In this document: piece after piece, positions 6,968 through 56,281 of the stretch
Layout: every line of letters starts with the position of its first letter
How positions within the stretch are numbered: position 1 is the stretch's first letter
NCBI RefSeq assembly: GCF_902497775.2
Contig: NZ_OZ024668.1
Location: forward strand, 4,510,326-4,574,325
Length of the DNA stretch: 64,000 bases
DNA from: Pseudomonas fluorescens
GTDB lineage: Bacteria; Pseudomonadota; Gammaproteobacteria; Pseudomonadales; Pseudomonadaceae
Direction of reading: 5' to 3'
Program-made: the position numbers and the translations under genes
The notes under the pieces: generated by a model
What the model saw: the letters and a program-made list of their open reading frames with translations, nothing else
The model's database searches: none
Told to the model about the DNA's origin: nothing

Positions 6968-7120
6968 GGCCGGCTCGTTTTAGTTAGAGAATCTTCGGCA
7001 GTACGGATCAGGGCAGACTAGCGGTTTAAATGGCACATTTGAAGATGATTGCCCCGCTTTGCGGAAAAAAGACTACAACAAAAAACGACAAACCTGGGCC
7101 GCTAACGGCGTACAAACAGA

Positions 7121-7144
7121 AACGCCCCGGCAAGCCGGGGCGTT
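7121..7144 (-). terminator. Rho-independent terminator after the DUF1329 gene
   Basis: An 11-bp perfect inverted repeat with stem ACGCCCCGGC and a two-base loop, followed on the minus strand by a T-rich stretch. It lies 28 bp past the DUF1329 stop codon. Confidence 0.8.
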
Positions 7145-7171
7145 CTGGGAGATCACACGGAGGTTTGAAGC

Positions 7172-8542
7172 TTAGCGCACACCTTCCTGGCGAAGCGCTG
7201 CAGGCTGGAAGTCGGCCTTGGAGGCAGTAAAGCCGAAGTCGTAGGCTCTCTTTTCCTCGTTCTTCATGCCCAGGGCCAGGTAGCGACCGGACTGCAGGTC
7301 GTAGATGGCTTCCAGGGTGTACCACGGCACCTGGACGTTGTAGTAATCCTGGGAGTGGGCCTCGGACACGCGCCACAGCTGGTTGCGACCGTCGTACTGG
7401 TCGATCACCGCGGCTTGCCAGGTGTCTTCGTCGATGTAGAAGTCACGCTTGGCGTAGATATGGCGCTGGCCCGGCTTCAGGGTCGCGACCACATGCCATA
7501 CCCGGCGCAGCTCGTAACGGGCGAGGTCCTGATTGATGTGCCCGGCCTTGATGATGTCGGCGTACTTGAGCTTAGGATCGTCGAGTTTGTAGCTGTTGGA
7601 GGCAATGAACATCTCTTTCTTGCCTTCCAGCTTCCAGTCGTAACGATCCGGCGCGCCGTTGTACATGTCCAGGTTGTCGGAGGTGCGCAGGCCGTCGGCA
7701 GCGGTACCGGGGCCGTCATAGGAAACCTGTGGCGCTGCCCGTACCCGGCGCTGGCCGGCGTTGTAGACCCAGGCCTTGCGTGGCTCTTTGACCTGGTCCA
7801 GGGTTTCGTGCACCAGCAGTACGGTACCGGCCAGACGCGCCGGCGCCGTCACCTTCTGCTTGAAGTAGAACAGCACGTTGCCCGGGTTGGCTGGATCGTA
7901 GTCCTTCATCCGGTCACGGAAGACGAACTGGTCCTGGAAATACACCAGGCTGTACGAACCGTTTTGTTGCGGCGTGGCCTGGGTCACCAGGCGGGTCACG
8001 CTGCCGCCGCGGTAGCGGGTGATGTGGTTCCAGATCACTTCCACGCCGCTTTTCGGAATCGGGAACGGCACGGCGGTGTCGAAGTTTTCCAGGCCGTTGC
8101 CACCCCCTACCAGGTTGGTGCTGGTGGCGTTTTTCTTGATCGCGGCAAACACCGCATCCGGCACGGTGGCGCCCCGGTGGGTCGGGTACACCGGAATCTT
8201 GAAAGTGTCCGGGTAGCGCTTGAACATGGCGACCTGACCTGGGGACAGTTTGTCCTTGTACTGGTCGACGTTCTGCGCGGTGATGGTGAACTTCGGTTGC
8301 TCGTTGCCATACGGGTCGGAAAGGAACCCCTTGGCATCGGCGCTACCGGCGCTCTTGGCCAACGGCTTCCAGGCAGTAATCGAACCGTCGGCATTACCGG
8401 CCTTTTCGGCGCCCATCGGTGTCAGGCTCGCGCCCAGCTTGGCCGCCTCGTCGGCGGAAACCGCCGCCATGACACTGGTCGCCAACAGGGACAGGCCCAG
8501 TACACCGGCTTGCAGCAGAGTCTTGGTTGTTTTCATCTTCAT
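7172..8542 (-). CDS. DUF1329 family secreted protein
   Basis: This 456-residue protein has a clear Sec signal (KTLLQAGVLGLSLLATSVMA, cleavage predicted near residue 26). The family is thought to adopt a LolA/LolB-like fold at the outer membrane and nearly always pairs with a DUF1302 protein. The start ATG at 8542 has AGGA five bases upstream. It lies 21 bp downstream of the DUF1302 gene, so the two form an operon. In Pseudomonas the pair is often found with acyl-CoA ligases or alcohol dehydrogenases and is associated with hydrophobic substrate use. Molecular function is unknown; transport or handling of a lipophilic substrate is the common inference. Confidence 0.88.
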   Translation of the reverse strand: MKMKTTKTLLQAGVLGLSLLATSVMAAVSADEAAKLGASLTPMGAEKAGNADGSITAWKPLAKSAGSADAKGFLSDPYGNEQPKFTITAQNVDQYKDKLSPGQVAMFKRYPDTFKIPVYPTHRGATVPDAVFAAIKKNATSTNLVGGGNGLENFDTAVPFPIPKSGVEVIWNHITRYRGGSVTRLVTQATPQQNGSYSLVYFQDQFVFRDRMKDYDPANPGNVLFYFKQKVTAPARLAGTVLLVHETLDQVKEPRKAWVYNAGQRRVRAAPQVSYDGPGTAADGLRTSDNLDMYNGAPDRYDWKLEGKKEMFIASNSYKLDDPKLKYADIIKAGHINQDLARYELRRVWHVVATLKPGQRHIYAKRDFYIDEDTWQAAVIDQYDGRNQLWRVSEAHSQDYYNVQVPWYTLEAIYDLQSGRYLALGMKNEEKRAYDFGFTASKADFQPAALRQEGVR

Positions 8543-16367: not shown

Positions 16368-16409
16368 AAAGAGCGCTTGCCGAATCGGGTTTGCCTAGGC
16401 AGAATCCGC

Positions 16410-16606
16410 TCCGTCCTAGGGGAGTAGTCTCCCGCGAGCACCCAGCTCGCCCGGTACGCGTCAACATACTTGGTCAACAGACCATGGCGCGTGCGACCCA
16501 CGGTCCGCACAGACGGACCCAGGGTTTGACAAGACCTATGACACGAACACCTTACCCGGGGCGGGAAGGCTGTACGTGTCATAGCCGTGTCGACCCGCCC
16601 CCGTAG
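16410..16606 (+). ncRNA. yybP-ykoY manganese riboswitch (leader of UPF0016 gene)
   Basis: The 247-bp gap before the UPF0016 gene carries the features of a yybP-ykoY leader. There is a GGGGAGTAG start at about 16419-16427, then several GC-rich paired segments, including complementary GGTCCG/CGGACC arms around 16501-16520. A 3' GGCGGGAAGGC-like stretch at about 16561-16571 follows, shortly before the ribosome site. Established knowledge: this Mn2+-sensing aptamer controls Mn exporters, including UPF0016 proteins in Pseudomonas. A long ORF here on the plus strand is spurious. Boundaries are approximate. Confidence 0.75.
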
Positions 16607-48877: not shown

Positions 48878-49978
48878 ATGGGTTTCAATTGCGGCATCGT
48901 CGGCCTGCCCAACGTCGGCAAGTCCACCCTGTTCAACGCCTTGACCAAATCCGGCATCGCCGCTGAGAACTTCCCGTTCTGCACCATCGAGCCGAACAGC
49001 GGCATCGTGCCAATGCCCGATGCACGTCTGGACGCCCTGGCGGCCATCGTCAAGCCGAACCGCGTGCTGCCGACCACCATGGAATTCGTCGACATCGCCG
49101 GCCTGGTTGCCGGCGCCTCGAAAGGTGAAGGCCTGGGCAACAAGTTCCTCGCCAACATCCGCGAGACCGACGCCATCGCCCACGTGGTGCGCTGCTTCGA
49201 AGACGAGAACGTGATTCACGTCTCCAACAGCGTCGATCCCAAGCGCGACATCGAGATCATCGACCTGGAACTGATCTTCGCCGACCTCGACAGCTGCGAG
49301 AAGCAACTGCAGAAAGTCGCGCGCAACGCCAAGGGCGGTGACAAGGACGCCCTGGCGCAGAAAGCCATCCTCGAAAAACTGATCCCGCACTTCACCGAAG
49401 GCAAGCCTGCGCGCAGCCTGATGAAGAACATGGCAGACGACGAGAAGGCCCTGGTTCGCGGCTTCCACCTGCTGACCAGCAAGCCTGTGATGTACATCGC
49501 CAACGTTGCCGAAGACGGCTTCGACAACAACCCGCACCTGGACGTGGTCCGCGCCATCGCCGAAGAAGAAGGCGCGATCGTGGTGCCGGTGTGCAACAAG
49601 ATCGAGGCAGAGATCGCCGAGCTCGACGACGGTGAAGAGAAAGACATGTTCCTCGAAGCCCTGGGCCTCGAAGAGCCAGGCCTGAATCGCGTGATCCGCG
49701 CCGGTTACTCGCTGCTCAACCTGCAGACCTACTTCACTGCCGGCGTGCAGGAAGTCCGCGCCTGGACCGTGCGCGTCGGCGCCACCGCCCCGCAAGCGGC
49801 CGGCGTGATTCACACCGACTTCGAGAAAGGCTTCATCCGCGCCGAAGTGGTCGCCTATGACGACTTCATCCAGTACAAGGGTGAAAGCGGCGCCAAAGAA
49901 GCTGGCAAATGGCGTCTGGAAGGCAAGGACTACATCGTCAAGGACGGTGACGTGATGCACTTCCGCTTCAACGTCTAA
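48878..49978 (+). CDS. ychF: Redox-regulated ATPase YchF (Obg-like)
   Basis: A 366-residue P-loop protein: G1 [16 protein letters not shown]3-like [20 protein letters not shown], coiled-coil insertion about 130-200 and a C-terminal TGS domain. It hydrolyses ATP and binds the ribosome; it is linked to oxidative stress response. It is the last core gene before the mobile island. Confidence 0.96.
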
Positions 49979-50036
49979 ATTGTAGCTGGCATTGCAGGTG
50001 ATTGCTTAGGGTTGCGAGACAGTCCTTTAATCATCC

Positions 50037-50065
50037 CGAAAGCCCCCATATATGGGGGCTTTCGT
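50037..50065 (+). terminator. Rho-independent terminator of ychF
   Basis: Stem CGAAAGCCCCCA with its complement around a short TAT-rich centre, then T-rich sequence; near-perfect and probably bidirectional. Confidence 0.88.
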
Positions 50066-50193
50066 GTTTCTATGGCATGCATGAGATTGCAGCAGCATGC
50101 ACAAAAAAACGACTACACCGGTGTATACGGTTCTTGGACAGCCCTCGATTAGGTGTATACGATGGCAATTTTCCGGAAAGGGACAGTGCCTGG

Positions 50194-50735
50194 ATGCTTA
50201 CGGACGCTCACTGCCGGGCTGCCAAGCCCAAAGCCAAGCTGTACCGCATCAACGATGCTAGAGGCCTTTACCTAGAGGTGAAACCGAACGGCGTGCGCGC
50301 TTGGCGTTACCGATTCAAACTGAGTGGAAAGGCCTCCTGGTTCGCTCTAGGCGACTACCCTAGTATCTCGCTGGCAAATGCTCGCGAGAAATGCGACGAG
50401 GCTCGCAGGCTAGTCAGACAGGGAATTAGCCCAGTACAGAATCGGCAATTGGAGAAAATTACGCGAGAGCTTGATGCCTCGAATACGTTCGAATCAGTCG
50501 CCTCGGAATGGCTCGCATTGAAAGACTGGGAGCCTGTGACGAAAACACGTCGCCTAGGGATGCTCAAAAGAGTTGTGTTTCCATCAATTGGAAAACTCCC
50601 TGTGCGGACTATCAAGCCGGCGCACGTTTTAGACATTCTTAACAGGACGGTTAGGCGTGGCGCACCATCCGTTGCGGCGGAAGCTAAACGCACGATGTCG
50701 GCAGTATTCGAATTAGCTGTCGCGACCCTGAGAGC
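50194..50735 (+). pseudogene. Truncated P4-type tyrosine integrase
   Basis: The first 180 or so residues of a P4-like integrase are present: the arm-binding DUF4102 domain (LTDAHCRAAKPKAKLYRINDARGLYLEVKPNG, about 1-85) and the core-binding domain to about 175. The catalytic domain with Arg-His-Arg-Tyr residues is missing because an IS3-family element begins at 50736. The frame runs five codons into the IS and stops. The 3' half is not found on the other side of the IS, so it has been deleted. GC content drops relative to ychF. Marks the left end of the island and is not functional as it stands. Confidence 0.88.
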
Positions 50736-50743
50736 TGTAGTGG

Positions 50744-51906
<1,163 letters not shown>

Positions 51907-51970
51907 CAGACACCTCTCTGTGGCGAGCATTCTCGCCTAAATGGGTGTCCGGAATCATTAGACCACTACA

Positions 51971-52495
51971 CCTTGATCGATAGCGCTCAAATGTGAGCTA
52001 AGGGTAGCTCACCATGTGATCGACCCGACTTGATCAATTTGGGACCGTAAGAAAACCGCTAAGGAAGCCGAGCGGAGGCTTATCTGGCTGAATCGAATAG
52101 GACAATTGCAATGTTTTTTTCAACCTGGTTATCCACGCTGAAACGCAAATAATTCCTTGTGCCTGACTTCCGATCGCAACTGACGCCTCGCTCGCTCGTT
52201 GTCGGCCGGACGACAAAGCCGGGAATGCTTCGCTATCCCGGCTTCGCTGTCCGGCTCAACTGAAAATCCAGAAGCACTGCGTCCACCAGCCGCTACTCGT
52301 GAAAATGGCTTCATTGGGGCGCCTACAGAATTCGGAAAAAATCATACGCTAAGGTTTCGAACTCTAGTGGCGCGCCAGATTTAGAGCTTACCCACCTCTA
52401 TCCGTCTGGCTCCCGAAAGCCCGCGGGCTGTGGCCTATACTGAATCGGTCAATATGTTCGCAGCCAACGTGTAGTAATGAAAGGAATCCCACGAC
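51971..52495. other. Gene-poor island segment with nested hairpin
   Basis: 525 bp between the IS and the next gene. No remnant of the integrase 3' half can be read here in any plus frame. The notable structure is a nested inverted repeat: an outer GCCGGAC/GTCCGGC pair (52205-52211 and 52249-52255) enclosing an inner AAGCCGGGA/TCCCGGCTT pair (52216-52224 and 52236-52244). Short minus-strand frames here look spurious. Confidence 0.5.
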
Positions 52496-53854: not shown

Positions 53855-54496
53855 CGTACGATTTTTTTCGAATTCTGGGGGCTCCCCTCATAGCAAGGGT
53901 TTGGGATCTGGTCGGAAACCTAAAAATCAATGCCTTCACCGAAGGCACATGACAGCATTCGCGTTTCTATCCATCAAATGAGCCTGCGCGCACACGCGCC
54001 CGGTTGAGGCGCGGGGCGGCTTGCCGTCCTGGGGCGATTTATCCGGGTCTTAGCGCCCGCAGGGTGGCCGGAGGCCAGGACAGGGCAGCTCTATCGCCCT
54101 GAGCCGCTTAGACAGGCTGTTACGCGCTAGTCGGTTTGCTTCCAGTCAGCGGCCGCAGGCCTCTGCCGGAGTTTGGGGCGAGTAGCCCCATGTTCTTTAC
54201 CGTGCCGTGCCGGAGGCACGACTTTGCACGGGCGCTATCTGAGGTACACCTCGTAAAGCTCTGTTTTTACCCGTAGGGGGAAACTGAAAGGGATATAAAA
54301 TTTCATTTATTTAAAAGCTTCGGCCGGGCCCCTCGAGAGACTCTAGAAACGGCACCAAAAATGTCGGCTCCGCCAGCGAATCGGTGGTTTTTCGAGAGCT
54401 GACCAACTACCCCTTGGACACGCACAAATCACAGGCGTGAAGCGGCCTCCGCGTGAGCGGATATAGAAAAAAGGAGAGGGAGGGTAGTTTTGGGCC
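53855..54496. other. Gene-free region downstream of repA, probable replication origin
   Basis: 642 bp without a credible gene. It lies immediately 3' of repA, where IncFII/IncI-type plasmids carry CIS and oriR. It has a GC-rich part with small hairpins (53931-53947; 54206-54220), then an AT-rich stretch (about 54291-54317) next to a cluster of 6-bp palindromes (54310-54347). A weak DnaA-box-like TTATCCGGG is near 54030. The origin role is inferred from position. Confidence 0.45.
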
Positions 54497-55339
54497 TTAG
54501 CCTGACGCCTTGACAGCGACGTTGGCCAGCAGCTTGCTCAACCTGTCAGTAACCTGGTTACCAGTCACCGCCTGCGGCCTCGATGGCCCCTCATCTGAGG
54601 GTCGTCTCACTGATGCCGGCAGGTCGTCTGATTCGCGGCTTTCCTTGGCACGCCAACGATTACGGGACACTTCACGACGCAGCAGCTCCTTCGAATGGCG
54701 CTCCATGTCGTCAAGACGGCGCTGGCCAATCACATTCAATTGAACCTGGCGACGTTTACGCGCGGAGTTCTGCACACGCTCAAACACATGCAGTAACCCA
54801 AGGTCTTTCCAGAAGAGTTTGGTGAAGCGGATAAGCACGCGTGTGCGCACCAAGTGCAAGCCACCTTCGTCTTTTTCATCAAGGCGGATTCGCTCAATTC
54901 GACGGTAGACGTAGCCGGCATCGTCGAGGGTCTTGAACAGCCGGCACAGCACCGGGGCTGAGACGCCTTCGGAGTCTTCGGCAATTTTGCGTTGGGTGTT
55001 GAGCACATATCGCCCAGCTTCAGGATCGATGTATCCCAGTATCCCGGTGGCCAAGTCCAAGCGCACCAGCAACTGCTCTGCTACTCGTTCGATCACTTGA
55101 AATTTCTCAACACGGGTACGTCGATCACCGTGCACCGTATCAAGCCGACGCAGGTACTGACCTCGGTAGCCGACCATGTTGCTAAGACGCTCGTAGGCTG
55201 AACGGATGAGCGGATTCTTGAGCTGCTGATCGGAGAGGTGCCGAGGGGCTGCGTACTGGGCAGGCATAGGGCGCGCGGGGCAGCGCAGCGCAGAATGCGG
55301 ATTGGAAGGTAAAAGCCGGACAGCTTTGCGGTAGGTCAT
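54497..55339 (-). CDS. repA: Plasmid-type replication initiator RepA (IncFII/RepA-like)
   Basis: A 280-residue basic protein resembling IncFII-type RepA in pattern. It has FQVIERVAEQLLVRLDLATGILGYIDPEAGRYV near residue 80, a probable helix-turn-helix around IAEDSEGVSAPVLCRLFKTLDDAGYV near 115-140, and RVLIRFTKLFWKDLGLL near 170. A strong ribosome site (GGAGG, six bases) precedes ATG 55339, and the ATG overlaps the stop of an upstream leader ORF. Upstream hairpins fit antisense-RNA copy control. On a chromosomal island it would allow replication after excision. The assignment rests on pattern recall and context. Confidence 0.72.
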   Translation of the reverse strand: MTYRKAVRLLPSNPHSALRCPARPMPAQYAAPRHLSDQQLKNPLIRSAYERLSNMVGYRGQYLRRLDTVHGDRRTRVEKFQVIERVAEQLLVRLDLATGILGYIDPEAGRYVLNTQRKIAEDSEGVSAPVLCRLFKTLDDAGYVYRRIERIRLDEKDEGGLHLVRTRVLIRFTKLFWKDLGLLHVFERVQNSARKRRQVQLNVIGQRRLDDMERHSKELLRREVSRNRWRAKESRESDDLPASVRRPSDEGPSRPQAVTGNQVTDRLSKLLANVAVKASG

Positions 55340-55461
55340 CCCTCACCTCCAACGCACCCCGGCTTGTACTGAGCAATCTGTCTAATCCGATTCAGTGCAC
55401 ACGTATTGCTTCCACCGTTATAACGATGAGACATCGGATTGAATTTTATTGAATTTCCCAT
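55336..55461 (-). CDS. Leader peptide translationally coupled to repA
   Basis: A 41-codon ORF (MGNSIKFNPMSHRYNGGSN...) whose TGA overlaps the repA ATG as ATGA. AAGAGG lies upstream; a GTG three codons earlier is an alternative start. Short ORFs in this position (tap in IncFII, repY in IncI plasmids) must be translated for Rep synthesis. Its sequence resembles nothing known to me; position and coupling carry the call. Confidence 0.6.
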   Translation of the reverse strand: MGNSIKFNPMSHRYNGGSNTCALNRIRQIAQYKPGCVGGEG

Positions 55462-55499
55462 CGGGCACACTCGCCTCTTGTGCGTCAGAGCACACCTAC

Positions 55500-55528
55500 T
55501 TGCGAACAGCAGGGATGGGAGCTAGGAT
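55500..55528 (+). promoter_or_regulatory. Candidate promoter of a counter-transcribed copy-control RNA
   Basis: TTGCGA (55500-55505) and TAGGAT (55523-55528) with an ideal 17-bp spacer, reading away from repA into the two hairpins. The transcript would be antisense to the repA leader. Confidence 0.45.
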
Positions 55529-55560
55529 GCTAACTTGTCGACAGTTGCATCGTTTTGTGG

Positions 55561-55638
55561 TTCTTCAGCCGCCAAGCTGAAGAATGCGACACACCCCTGC
55601 TGTAGTCACCAGAAGCCCGCTCGCCAAAGCGGGCTTCT
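55561..55638 (+). ncRNA. Candidate antisense RNA / repA leader stem-loops
   Basis: Two perfect hairpins: a 9-bp stem at 55561-55584 and an 11-bp stem at 55611-55638. Both have the same six-base loop: CGCCAA on the plus strand, UUGGCG on the repA mRNA strand. UUGGCG is the kissing-loop motif of IncFII/IncI-type rep mRNA targets. No clear T run marks the 3' end of a plus-strand RNA. Confidence 0.6.
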
Positions 55639-55642
55639 GCAT

Positions 55643-55861
55643 TCAGGGATTCTGCCGAGCGGCGGATTCGGCTATCGGGGGCCGTTTGGTTGCTTTGGAT
55701 TCGAGCCAATGATCAAGATCATGCTCGAACCAGCCTACTATCCCGCCGCTTAATTGCACCGATGGTGGGAATGAAGGGTCGTTACGCTCGAGACGCCAAA
55801 GTGTTGAAGGGTTGATGCCCCCTAGCTTTTTGCAAACGGCTTTCCGGCGAATGATCTGCAT
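55643..55861 (-). CDS. AlpA-family DNA-binding regulator/excisionase
   Basis: A 72-residue winged-helix protein (MQIIRRKAVCKKLGGINPSTLWRLERND) followed by FPPSVQLSGGIVGWFEHDLDHWLESK, the AlpA/MerR-like pattern. In P4-like satellites and islands AlpA-type proteins activate the integrase or act as excisionase. AGAGG lies five bases before the ATG. It is upstream of the repA leader on the same strand. Confidence 0.85.
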   Translation of the reverse strand: MQIIRRKAVCKKLGGINPSTLWRLERNDPSFPPSVQLSGGIVGWFEHDLDHWLESKATKRPPIAESAARQNP

Positions 55862-56281
55862 GACTACCTCTGCGCTTTATCAGTTGCATGCAGTGTCAGC
55901 AGCGGTCATTCCCAAGTCACGGAGTCTCATTTTATTATTTTCACTTCTCGAAAATCCGTGATTCGCTCTCTCGATGAAGGACGCGGTACCAGCCTGGCTT
56001 CTAGAGCTGCGAAGAGGGTAGCAAAAGCCAAAGTGTATACGAGGGTGACTATATTCTGCGGGATGGCGCACAGACCCCTTGCAGAACGGGACCTGTAGCT
56101 CAGACTTACGTTTCAACGTCTGACCCAGCATCCTGATGCATCCGAAACCCCTTGAGGCCTCGCCTCAAGGGGTTTTTCTTTGCCCGCGCAAGCCACTGCT
56201 GCCGACAGCGGCGCCGGCAAGCCATGTCTATACTCAAGCTCGTTTTCAAGCAACCCTCCTCCACTGAGCAGGTATCGGCGC
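55862..56281. other. Right-end region of the island
   Basis: 420 bp without a supported gene. A GTGTATACGA copy (56033-56042) matches one near the left end (50153-50162), and an orphan terminator follows at 56145-56177. The TGTAGCTCAG segment near 56095 is tRNA-like but no cloverleaf forms. The element end is somewhere in about 56040-56145. Confidence 0.45.
56145..56177 (+). terminator. Rho-independent terminator
   Basis: A 14-bp stem AAACCCCTTGAGGC with complement, then TTTTT. No gene on the plus strand precedes it within the island, so its original partner may have been lost or displaced by the insertion. Confidence 0.85.

Follow-up and report, generated by a model that had tools for sequence, protein, structure and literature searches.

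How is a plasmid-type replication initiator kept in check once it has become part of a chromosome? The question is raised by a locus of Pseudomonas fluorescens in which the gene for such an initiator is preceded by a small regulatory gene, two hairpins with the same loop and a short open reading frame (ORF). Within the 64-kb stretch of DNA analyzed here, referred to as the window, the minus strand carries in order alpA, the hairpins HP1 and HP2, the leader ORF and a rep gene of 280 codons (Table 1). The reading favored here, with a probability of roughly 0.6, takes the leader to be an RNA brake that acts in cis on the RepJ-type initiator of a chromosomally integrated element. Most likely, this brake is a variant form of one known from plasmid copy-number control, in an unusual place.

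Table 1. Features of the alpA-leader-rep locus and of the surrounding island, in window positions. L018 is the corresponding locus of P. avellanae; SaL2 is a stem-loop of the plasmid module REx-C.
Feature	Position	Strand	Basis or remark
alpA (AlpA-type regulator, 72 aa)	55643..55861	-	PF05930; 89% identical in L018
HP1, loop UUGGCG	55610..55639	-	perfect 12-bp stem; 30/30 nt identical in L018
P0, 5' arm (long stem around HP2 and HP3)	55592..55609	-	MFE of window and L018
HP2, loop UUGGCG	55561..55584	-	perfect 9-bp stem; at the SaL2 place
HP3, third hairpin	55526..55551	-	two one-sided pair-keeping changes in L018
P0, 3' arm	55502..55517	-	MFE of window and L018
Predicted antisense promoter, TTGCGA-N17-TAGGAT	55500..55528	+	8/12 consensus matches
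Predicted antisense RNA, ~105 nt, two CGCCAA-loop hairpins	55535..55640	+	deduced from HP1 and the promoter; folded over 55535-55650
Leader ORF	55336..55470	-	41 codons (ATG 55461) or 44 (GTG 55470)
rep Shine-Dalgarno, GGAGG	55346..55350	-	sequence
RepJ-family replication initiator gene, 280 aa	54497..55339	-	homology to RepJ
Origin-like region 3' of rep	53930..54316	-	conserved with RepJ plasmids
attL-like repeat, 3' end of ychF	49959..49976	+	near-repeat
attR-like repeat	56104..56121	+	16/18 identical
Integrase gene, N-terminal part only	50056..50751	+	interrupted by IS 50733-51973

The island and its RepJ-family gene

The locus is flanked by an 18-nt near-repeat, one copy of which forms the end of a gene that we take to be ychF. 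Since the repeat is found at both ends, it suggests that a 6.1-kb island was integrated at the end of this gene. Of the integrase, the ORF retains just the arm-binding and core-binding parts; the DNA beyond it has stops in all three forward frames. Because the integrase is broken, the island may be unable to move now and the element may be a relic. The IS within the integrase gene, presumably of the IS3 type, encodes rve and HTH_Tnp_1 proteins. Closer to rep, 39-nt inverted repeats (GGGG...CTAAGG, 87% complementary), which we take to resemble Tn3-family ends, bound the segment 52316-53887. Between the repeats lie an ORF of 80 aa and the gene of a 351-aa HNH protein matching type IV restriction models (2.4e-11), and no clear target duplication was seen.

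The window Rep belongs by homology to the RepJ initiator family (REx-R): its identity to the RepJ proteins of both pPsv48C and pA506 is 73.2% when aligned residues are counted and 71% relative to the longer protein. The original prediction had named the gene repA and compared it with IncFII and IncI/L/M plasmids; a RepA of the IncFII type does not agree with this RepJ homology or with the lack of any Pfam or NCBIfam match to the protein at E values up to 0.1. Relatives are present in 34 of 72,556 plasmid records, 32 from Pseudomonas and 2 from Azotobacter. Among genomes of the genus, they were found in 12 of 298, 17 of 398 (with the L018 protein as the query) and 17 of 399, the three sets being overlapping draws. 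A blastn comparison of the rep gene with E. coli genomes gave no match, and neither RepJ nor AlpA relatives were seen in phage records and viral contigs. A RepJ is likewise reported for pAU10 (PMC13101481), and RepJ stability has been measured (PMC6354349). A relationship between AlpA and the RepB of pA506 and pAU10 was considered and proved unsupported on comparison.

Downstream of rep, the origin-like region is 81.7% identical over 405 nt to the region after repJ of pA506, and a piece of it is 91.5% identical over 141 nt to pPsv48C. The RepJ replicon is described as having SaL4 and SaL5 on its downstream side, of which SaL4 appeared essential (PMC5304414); the origin-like region is equated with SaL4/SaL5 by position. 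Judged by the homology of rep and the conserved region downstream, the island carries a rep gene and an origin-like region as RepJ plasmids do.

A structure prediction for Rep, made from 23 of 260 homologues, reached a mean pLDDT of 63, and its best PDB match (E 0.06) gives a weak hint of a winged-helix fold; the Rep sequence had no PDB match at E up to 1. A tree of 33 sequences has 11 open forks, with L044, L069, L070 and L077 on long branches, and no branching order is claimed for these reasons. Two RepJ proteins, P0006 and P0007, are nearly identical to the window Rep in their last part and of another type in their first part, as in mosaic genes.

The leader and its conservation in Pseudomonas avellanae

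In the original prediction, the leader was described as having two perfect hairpins with a common UUGGCG loop on stems of 9 and 11 bp. The loops and the 9-bp stem of HP2 are as stated, while the stem of HP1 is 12 bp long. The description of a 41-codon ORF whose stop overlaps the rep start codon was accurate, the stop (ending at 55336) and the ATG at 55339 overlapping as ATGA. An opposing promoter-like pair with the stated 17-bp spacing is likewise present on the plus strand (TTGCGA at 55500-55505 and TAGGAT at 55523-55528), although with its 8 of 12 consensus matches it is not reported by a stricter scan requiring at least 9 of 12. The motif AGAGG stands just 5' of the alternative leader start codon, GTG 55470, and by eye an ATG in the same frame stands at the corresponding position of L018. 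The fold of the 310-nt leader is stronger than those of 100 out of 100 shuffles (z -3.34). Also by eye, an inverted repeat, CACGGA...TCCGTG, at 55918-55960 on the 5' side of alpA is kept in L018 and may be an operator.

The rarity of the two hairpins was gauged in a 464-kb sample of this genome, made up of 20 stretches of 20 kb and the window. This sample contains 13 perfect hairpins with a stem of at least 9 bp and a 6-nt loop, and the loop is TTGGCG in two of them, HP1 and HP2. With stems of at least 7 bp and loops of 5-7 nt, HP1 and HP2 are the only pair within 150 nt of each other that have equal loops.

A second alpA-leader-repJ locus was found in P. avellanae (L018), where it adjoins what is presumably an algA-like gene. 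L102 carries the same leader as L018, and the loci of this type that were found number two, the window and P. avellanae. Between the window and L018, there are 13 differences in the 146 nt of 55500-55645. The window MFE structure has 51 pairs, and L018 keeps every one of them, 46 unchanged, 4 through one-sided changes and 1 through a double change. When the same 13 substitutions were placed randomly, 4.1 pairs were broken on average, and none was broken in only 0.18% of 5000 trials (P=0.0018). In the reverse count, the L018 MFE structure has 54 pairs, of which 3 are unpaired in the window. The altered pairs include three of the nine in HP2, all of which still pair; the double change is one of these (55581/55564, T-A to C-G), and the covariation consists of it. 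The loops of HP1 and HP2 are both unchanged. Identical runs of 56 nt and 36 nt (55500-55535) extend over HP1 and the predicted antisense promoter, respectively. The expectation that stems and loops would be kept across homologous loci was therefore borne out in L018, the sole homologous locus compared. The same does not extend to sequestration of the rep Shine-Dalgarno sequence, which is predicted to be paired in the window and mostly open in L018, and for which no conserved role is claimed.

Both alpA (dN 0.05, dS 0.47) and rep (first 200 codons; dN 0.07, dS 0.61) are under purifying selection between the window and L018, with dN/dS ratios of about 0.11-0.12. The leader ORF has stayed open in the window and in L018, and its peptide evolves faster than the two proteins (dN 0.16, dS 0.27). 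Such a weakly constrained peptide is as expected if translation of the leader, and not its product, is what matters.

A DNA search of 398 genomes of the genus with 55300-55900 returned 16 places spread over 15 genomes, the window among them, and no second leader. Of the other 15 places, eleven (from 10 genomes) resemble HP2 with different loops and by eye look protein-coding, three are short matches within alpA, and one is an HP1-like hairpin in another setting (genome G169, L028); all were dropped from the argument. A short alpA-like match was also noted in a further genome (L027, G183:C1:1104128-1104171). The leader had no blastn match in plasmids, and a 35-nt leader pattern had no exact match in viral contigs. 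At a more distant locus, in genome G011, an AlpA-type gene (PF05930; 33.8% identity over 61 residues) is found before a rep gene that is 55% identical. Among the literature matches listed, none describes an alpA-repJ leader in its title or the start of its abstract.

An alternative to a working brake, which we regard as unlikely, is that the control region has decayed. Once integrated, the ancestral brake would have ceased to function and shed its antisense terminator, with RepJ serving another role in the chromosome. The truncation of the integrase by the IS fits such a history, and so does work on PSA3335_1080, a clade III chromosomal repJ homologue of P. syringae pv. savastanoi NCPPB 3335. 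There, a 2.8-kb fragment gave no transformants, a smaller rep fragment replicated when placed behind plasmid SaL structures, and a role other than replication was suggested as possible (PMC5304414). Decay is harder to reconcile with the purifying selection on alpA and rep, the well-conserved origin-like region of the window and the RNA pairing kept in L018. PSA3335_1080 resembles the window Rep in being a chromosomal RepJ. Its printed identity to the RepJ of pPsv48C, 72.7% (PMC5304414), nearly equals the 72.5% (over the longer protein) obtained for the L018 RepJ, and for this reason a leader of the alpA type may be what the 2.8-kb fragment carried. In the accessible text of PMC5304414, no UUGGCG hairpins are described for PSA3335_1080 and the control of chromosomal RepJ homologues is left open; the window leader provides a concrete candidate for such control.

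Relation to plasmid control modules

The closest known counterpart of the leader is REx-C, the control module of RepJ and RepA-PFP plasmids. As described in PMC5304414, REx-C has a conserved core of 175-194 nt over SaL1-3, where SaL1 is a putative antisense terminator with adenine stretches on both sides, SaL2 has a variable loop and SaL3 contains a putative antisense promoter. A leader ORF coupled to rep completes the module and is missing in some members. Autonomous replication requires REx-C, and the incompatibility that it confers was mapped to the control module and could be relieved by changes that fall together in a single stem-loop (PMC5304414). In aligned leaders, pPsv48C and pA506 present the same order of parts as the window, namely SaL1, SaL2, an antisense promoter region and a leader ORF overlapping rep. 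HP1 occupies the place of SaL1 and HP2 that of SaL2. Accordingly, the layout of antisense-type control before the rep gene of an integrated element, as originally predicted, is retained, while its IncFII/IncI model is replaced by REx-C.

Taken feature by feature, the window has a SaL2-type hairpin between the SaL1 place and the predicted antisense promoter, as well as a rep-overlapping leader ORF for which coupling is predicted. It has neither the conserved core sequence nor a SaL1 terminator with adenine stretches. Unlike the SaL1 of REx-C, HP1 has arms (CAGAAG/CTTCTG) without A and T stretches and is without a U-run on either strand, the window reading CTTCTGG where the plasmid reads CTTTTTGG. 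HP2 differs from SaL2 in both stem and loop, and the window unit directly follows alpA on a chromosomal island. By one scan, an antisense-promoter-like pair is found in 6 of 18 loci (the window, L018 and, in the corresponding position, the plasmid-type leaders L067, L068, L070 and L053) and no pair in the other 12, which include pPsv48C (L025), L071 and L052.

The doubled loop can be viewed in the same light. In 12 of 25 distinct REx-C leaders, the loop of SaL1 reads TTGCCG; it reads TTGGCG in 8, CTGGTAA in 3, and CTGCAAA and TTGCAG in one each. Further down the leader, at SaL2, TTGGCG is seen among these 25 only in L006/L053. An apical TTGGCG loop further down is also present in L044 and in L069, where an extra hairpin in between makes the match to SaL2 loose; L006/L053, L044 and L069 are mutually unlike leaders. 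Because HP1 lies at SaL1, where TTGGCG is found in 8 of 25 leaders, and HP2 lies at SaL2, the two identical loops are largely explained and are best read as SaL1-type and SaL2-type loops that happen to match.

A covariance model, R1, was built from 15 of the 25 distinct REx-C leaders. In the window it matches HP1 alone (R1 positions 13-42) at 11.8 bits, with no leader-wide match, and L018 and L044 give no leader match. Since R1 matches HP1 only, the leader is not filed as a member of REx-C, although it is REx-C-like in layout and homology to REx-C is likely. The failure of R1 on the window and L018 agrees with PMC5304414, according to which RepJ clades III and IV do not share a conserved REx-C. 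This comparison suggests that a control module can diverge past sequence recognition and yet keep its layout and loop. New in the present locus are the linkage to alpA, an HP1 without a U-run, the equal loops and the chromosomal island with a broken integrase.

The behavior of R1 also bears on a similarly unlikely alternative, in which HP1 does no more than end transcription between alpA and the unit that follows, HP2 is unrelated and rep is controlled at its own promoter. HP1 begins only 3 nt past the alpA stop, the G169 genome has a similar same-loop hairpin in a different setting, and R1, besides matching HP1 alone, scores the terminator-like window hairpins at 7107-7193 and 49947-50076 higher, at 20.7 bits each. 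Against this alternative stand the lack of a U-run at HP1 on either strand, the survival of HP2 and P0 pairing through the substitutions in L018 and the fact that equal loops in neighboring hairpins were seen nowhere else in the 464 kb.

On pAcX50f of Azotobacter chroococcum (L077), an R1 match of 44.2 bits at 2305-2457 lies before a RepJ relative, unlike the survey in PMC5304414, which found none outside the genus Pseudomonas. In P. aeruginosa CP137942 (L069), a RepJ relative has a REx-C-like leader partly matched by R1 (8.8 bits), with its TTGGCG apical loop about 220 nt 5' of rep. P. aeruginosa CP124676 (L078), a plasmid record carrying phage tail genes, has a SaL1-like hairpin with the loop TTGGCG at 2263-2294, before a distant RepJ relative (33%).

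In the CopA-CopT system of IncFII plasmids and in others, a UUGGCG loop is the target of an antisense RNA. Both IncFII plasmids and ColIb-P9, with its Inc RNA and repZ, combine an antisense RNA with a leader peptide coupled to rep. For ColIb-P9, UUGGCG is described as the antisense target loop in a study cited in PMC10724649. The window shares with these plasmids the UUGGCG loop, a predicted antisense RNA and a leader ORF overlapping rep. It differs in having an unrelated Rep protein, two loop hairpins, no pseudoknot partner and a pyrimidine instead of the purine before the loop (rUUGGCG). Comparison with Rfam found no plasmid antisense family, either at gathering thresholds or, for 55300-55960, at E up to 5. 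With no Pfam or NCBIfam match to Rep either, membership in the IncFII, IncI or IncL/M groups was rejected, as was a pseudoknot of the IncI or IncL/M type, since 55280-55960 contains no CGCCAA in the sense orientation. A switch within the leader RNA itself, with no antisense partner, was also considered. Leader translation would then be set by refolding of HP1, HP2 and P0, or by a protein or trans-acting RNA that binds the loops. Such a switch would suit the strong fold and two identical loops meeting a repeated partner, but is highly improbable given that the sense strand has no loop complement for an IncI-type pseudoknot and that the promoter-like antisense element is conserved in L018.

A candidate antisense brake

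The mechanism that we infer for the RNA brake builds on these computed features. The sense transcript, probably alpA-leader-repJ, would fold into HP1 followed by a long stem that contains HP2 and HP3. From the promoter at 55500-55528, an antisense RNA of about 105 nt would run through HP2 and then HP1. Most likely, its CGCCAA loop would kiss the UUGGCG loop of HP2 and perhaps also that of HP1. Kissing would lower translation of the leader ORF and, through coupling at the ATGA overlap, the production of RepJ, and the integrated replicon would be kept quiet. If functional, the leader would represent a plasmid copy-number brake re-used to silence a replicon in the chromosome. Some steps are less certain than others. 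Because HP1 is without the U-run of the plasmid SaL1, termination of the antisense RNA at HP1 is doubtful, and since its 5' end would be about 65 nt from the leader start, direct blocking of the ribosome-binding site is not obvious. Counted in favor of the brake are the rarity of the hairpin pair, the conservation of pairs in L018, the identical runs, the REx-C order of parts, the apical TTGGCG loops further down in L006/L053, L044 and L069, and the leader ORF kept open in both loci. Counted against it are the two loci only, the one double change, the 3 L018 pairs missing from the window, the R1 result, the 8/12 promoter, the unconserved Shine-Dalgarno pairing and the broken integrase.

A more elaborate version, in which the doubled loop is an adaptation to the chromosome, is improbable. 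The weakened terminator would allow a shared alpA-repJ transcript, the two loops would act as two antisense sites, and the replicon would be held near zero until an AlpA-driven burst, as the signal of excision, overran the antisense RNA. If this version were true, excision and replication would be coupled through an RNA switch.

Other integrated elements offer partial parallels. In the Pf prophage, the excisionase is reportedly linked to the replication initiator, and we know of no RNA brake of such kind there. Like the island, the Pf prophage has a regulator of the excisionase type, which plays into the life cycle of the phage (PMC7379572); Pf is a filamentous phage. In Salmonella, SGI1 is likewise integrated and has its rep gene after a small HTH gene (S004); unlike the window, its Rep has a RepA_C domain and works with iterons, and the main text of PMC7433901 does not contain the word antisense. 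An integrative plasmid of P. aeruginosa is also known (PMC4739549). Elsewhere in the window, a manganese (yybP-ykoY) riboswitch is found at 16406-16527 with a score of 49.6 bits.
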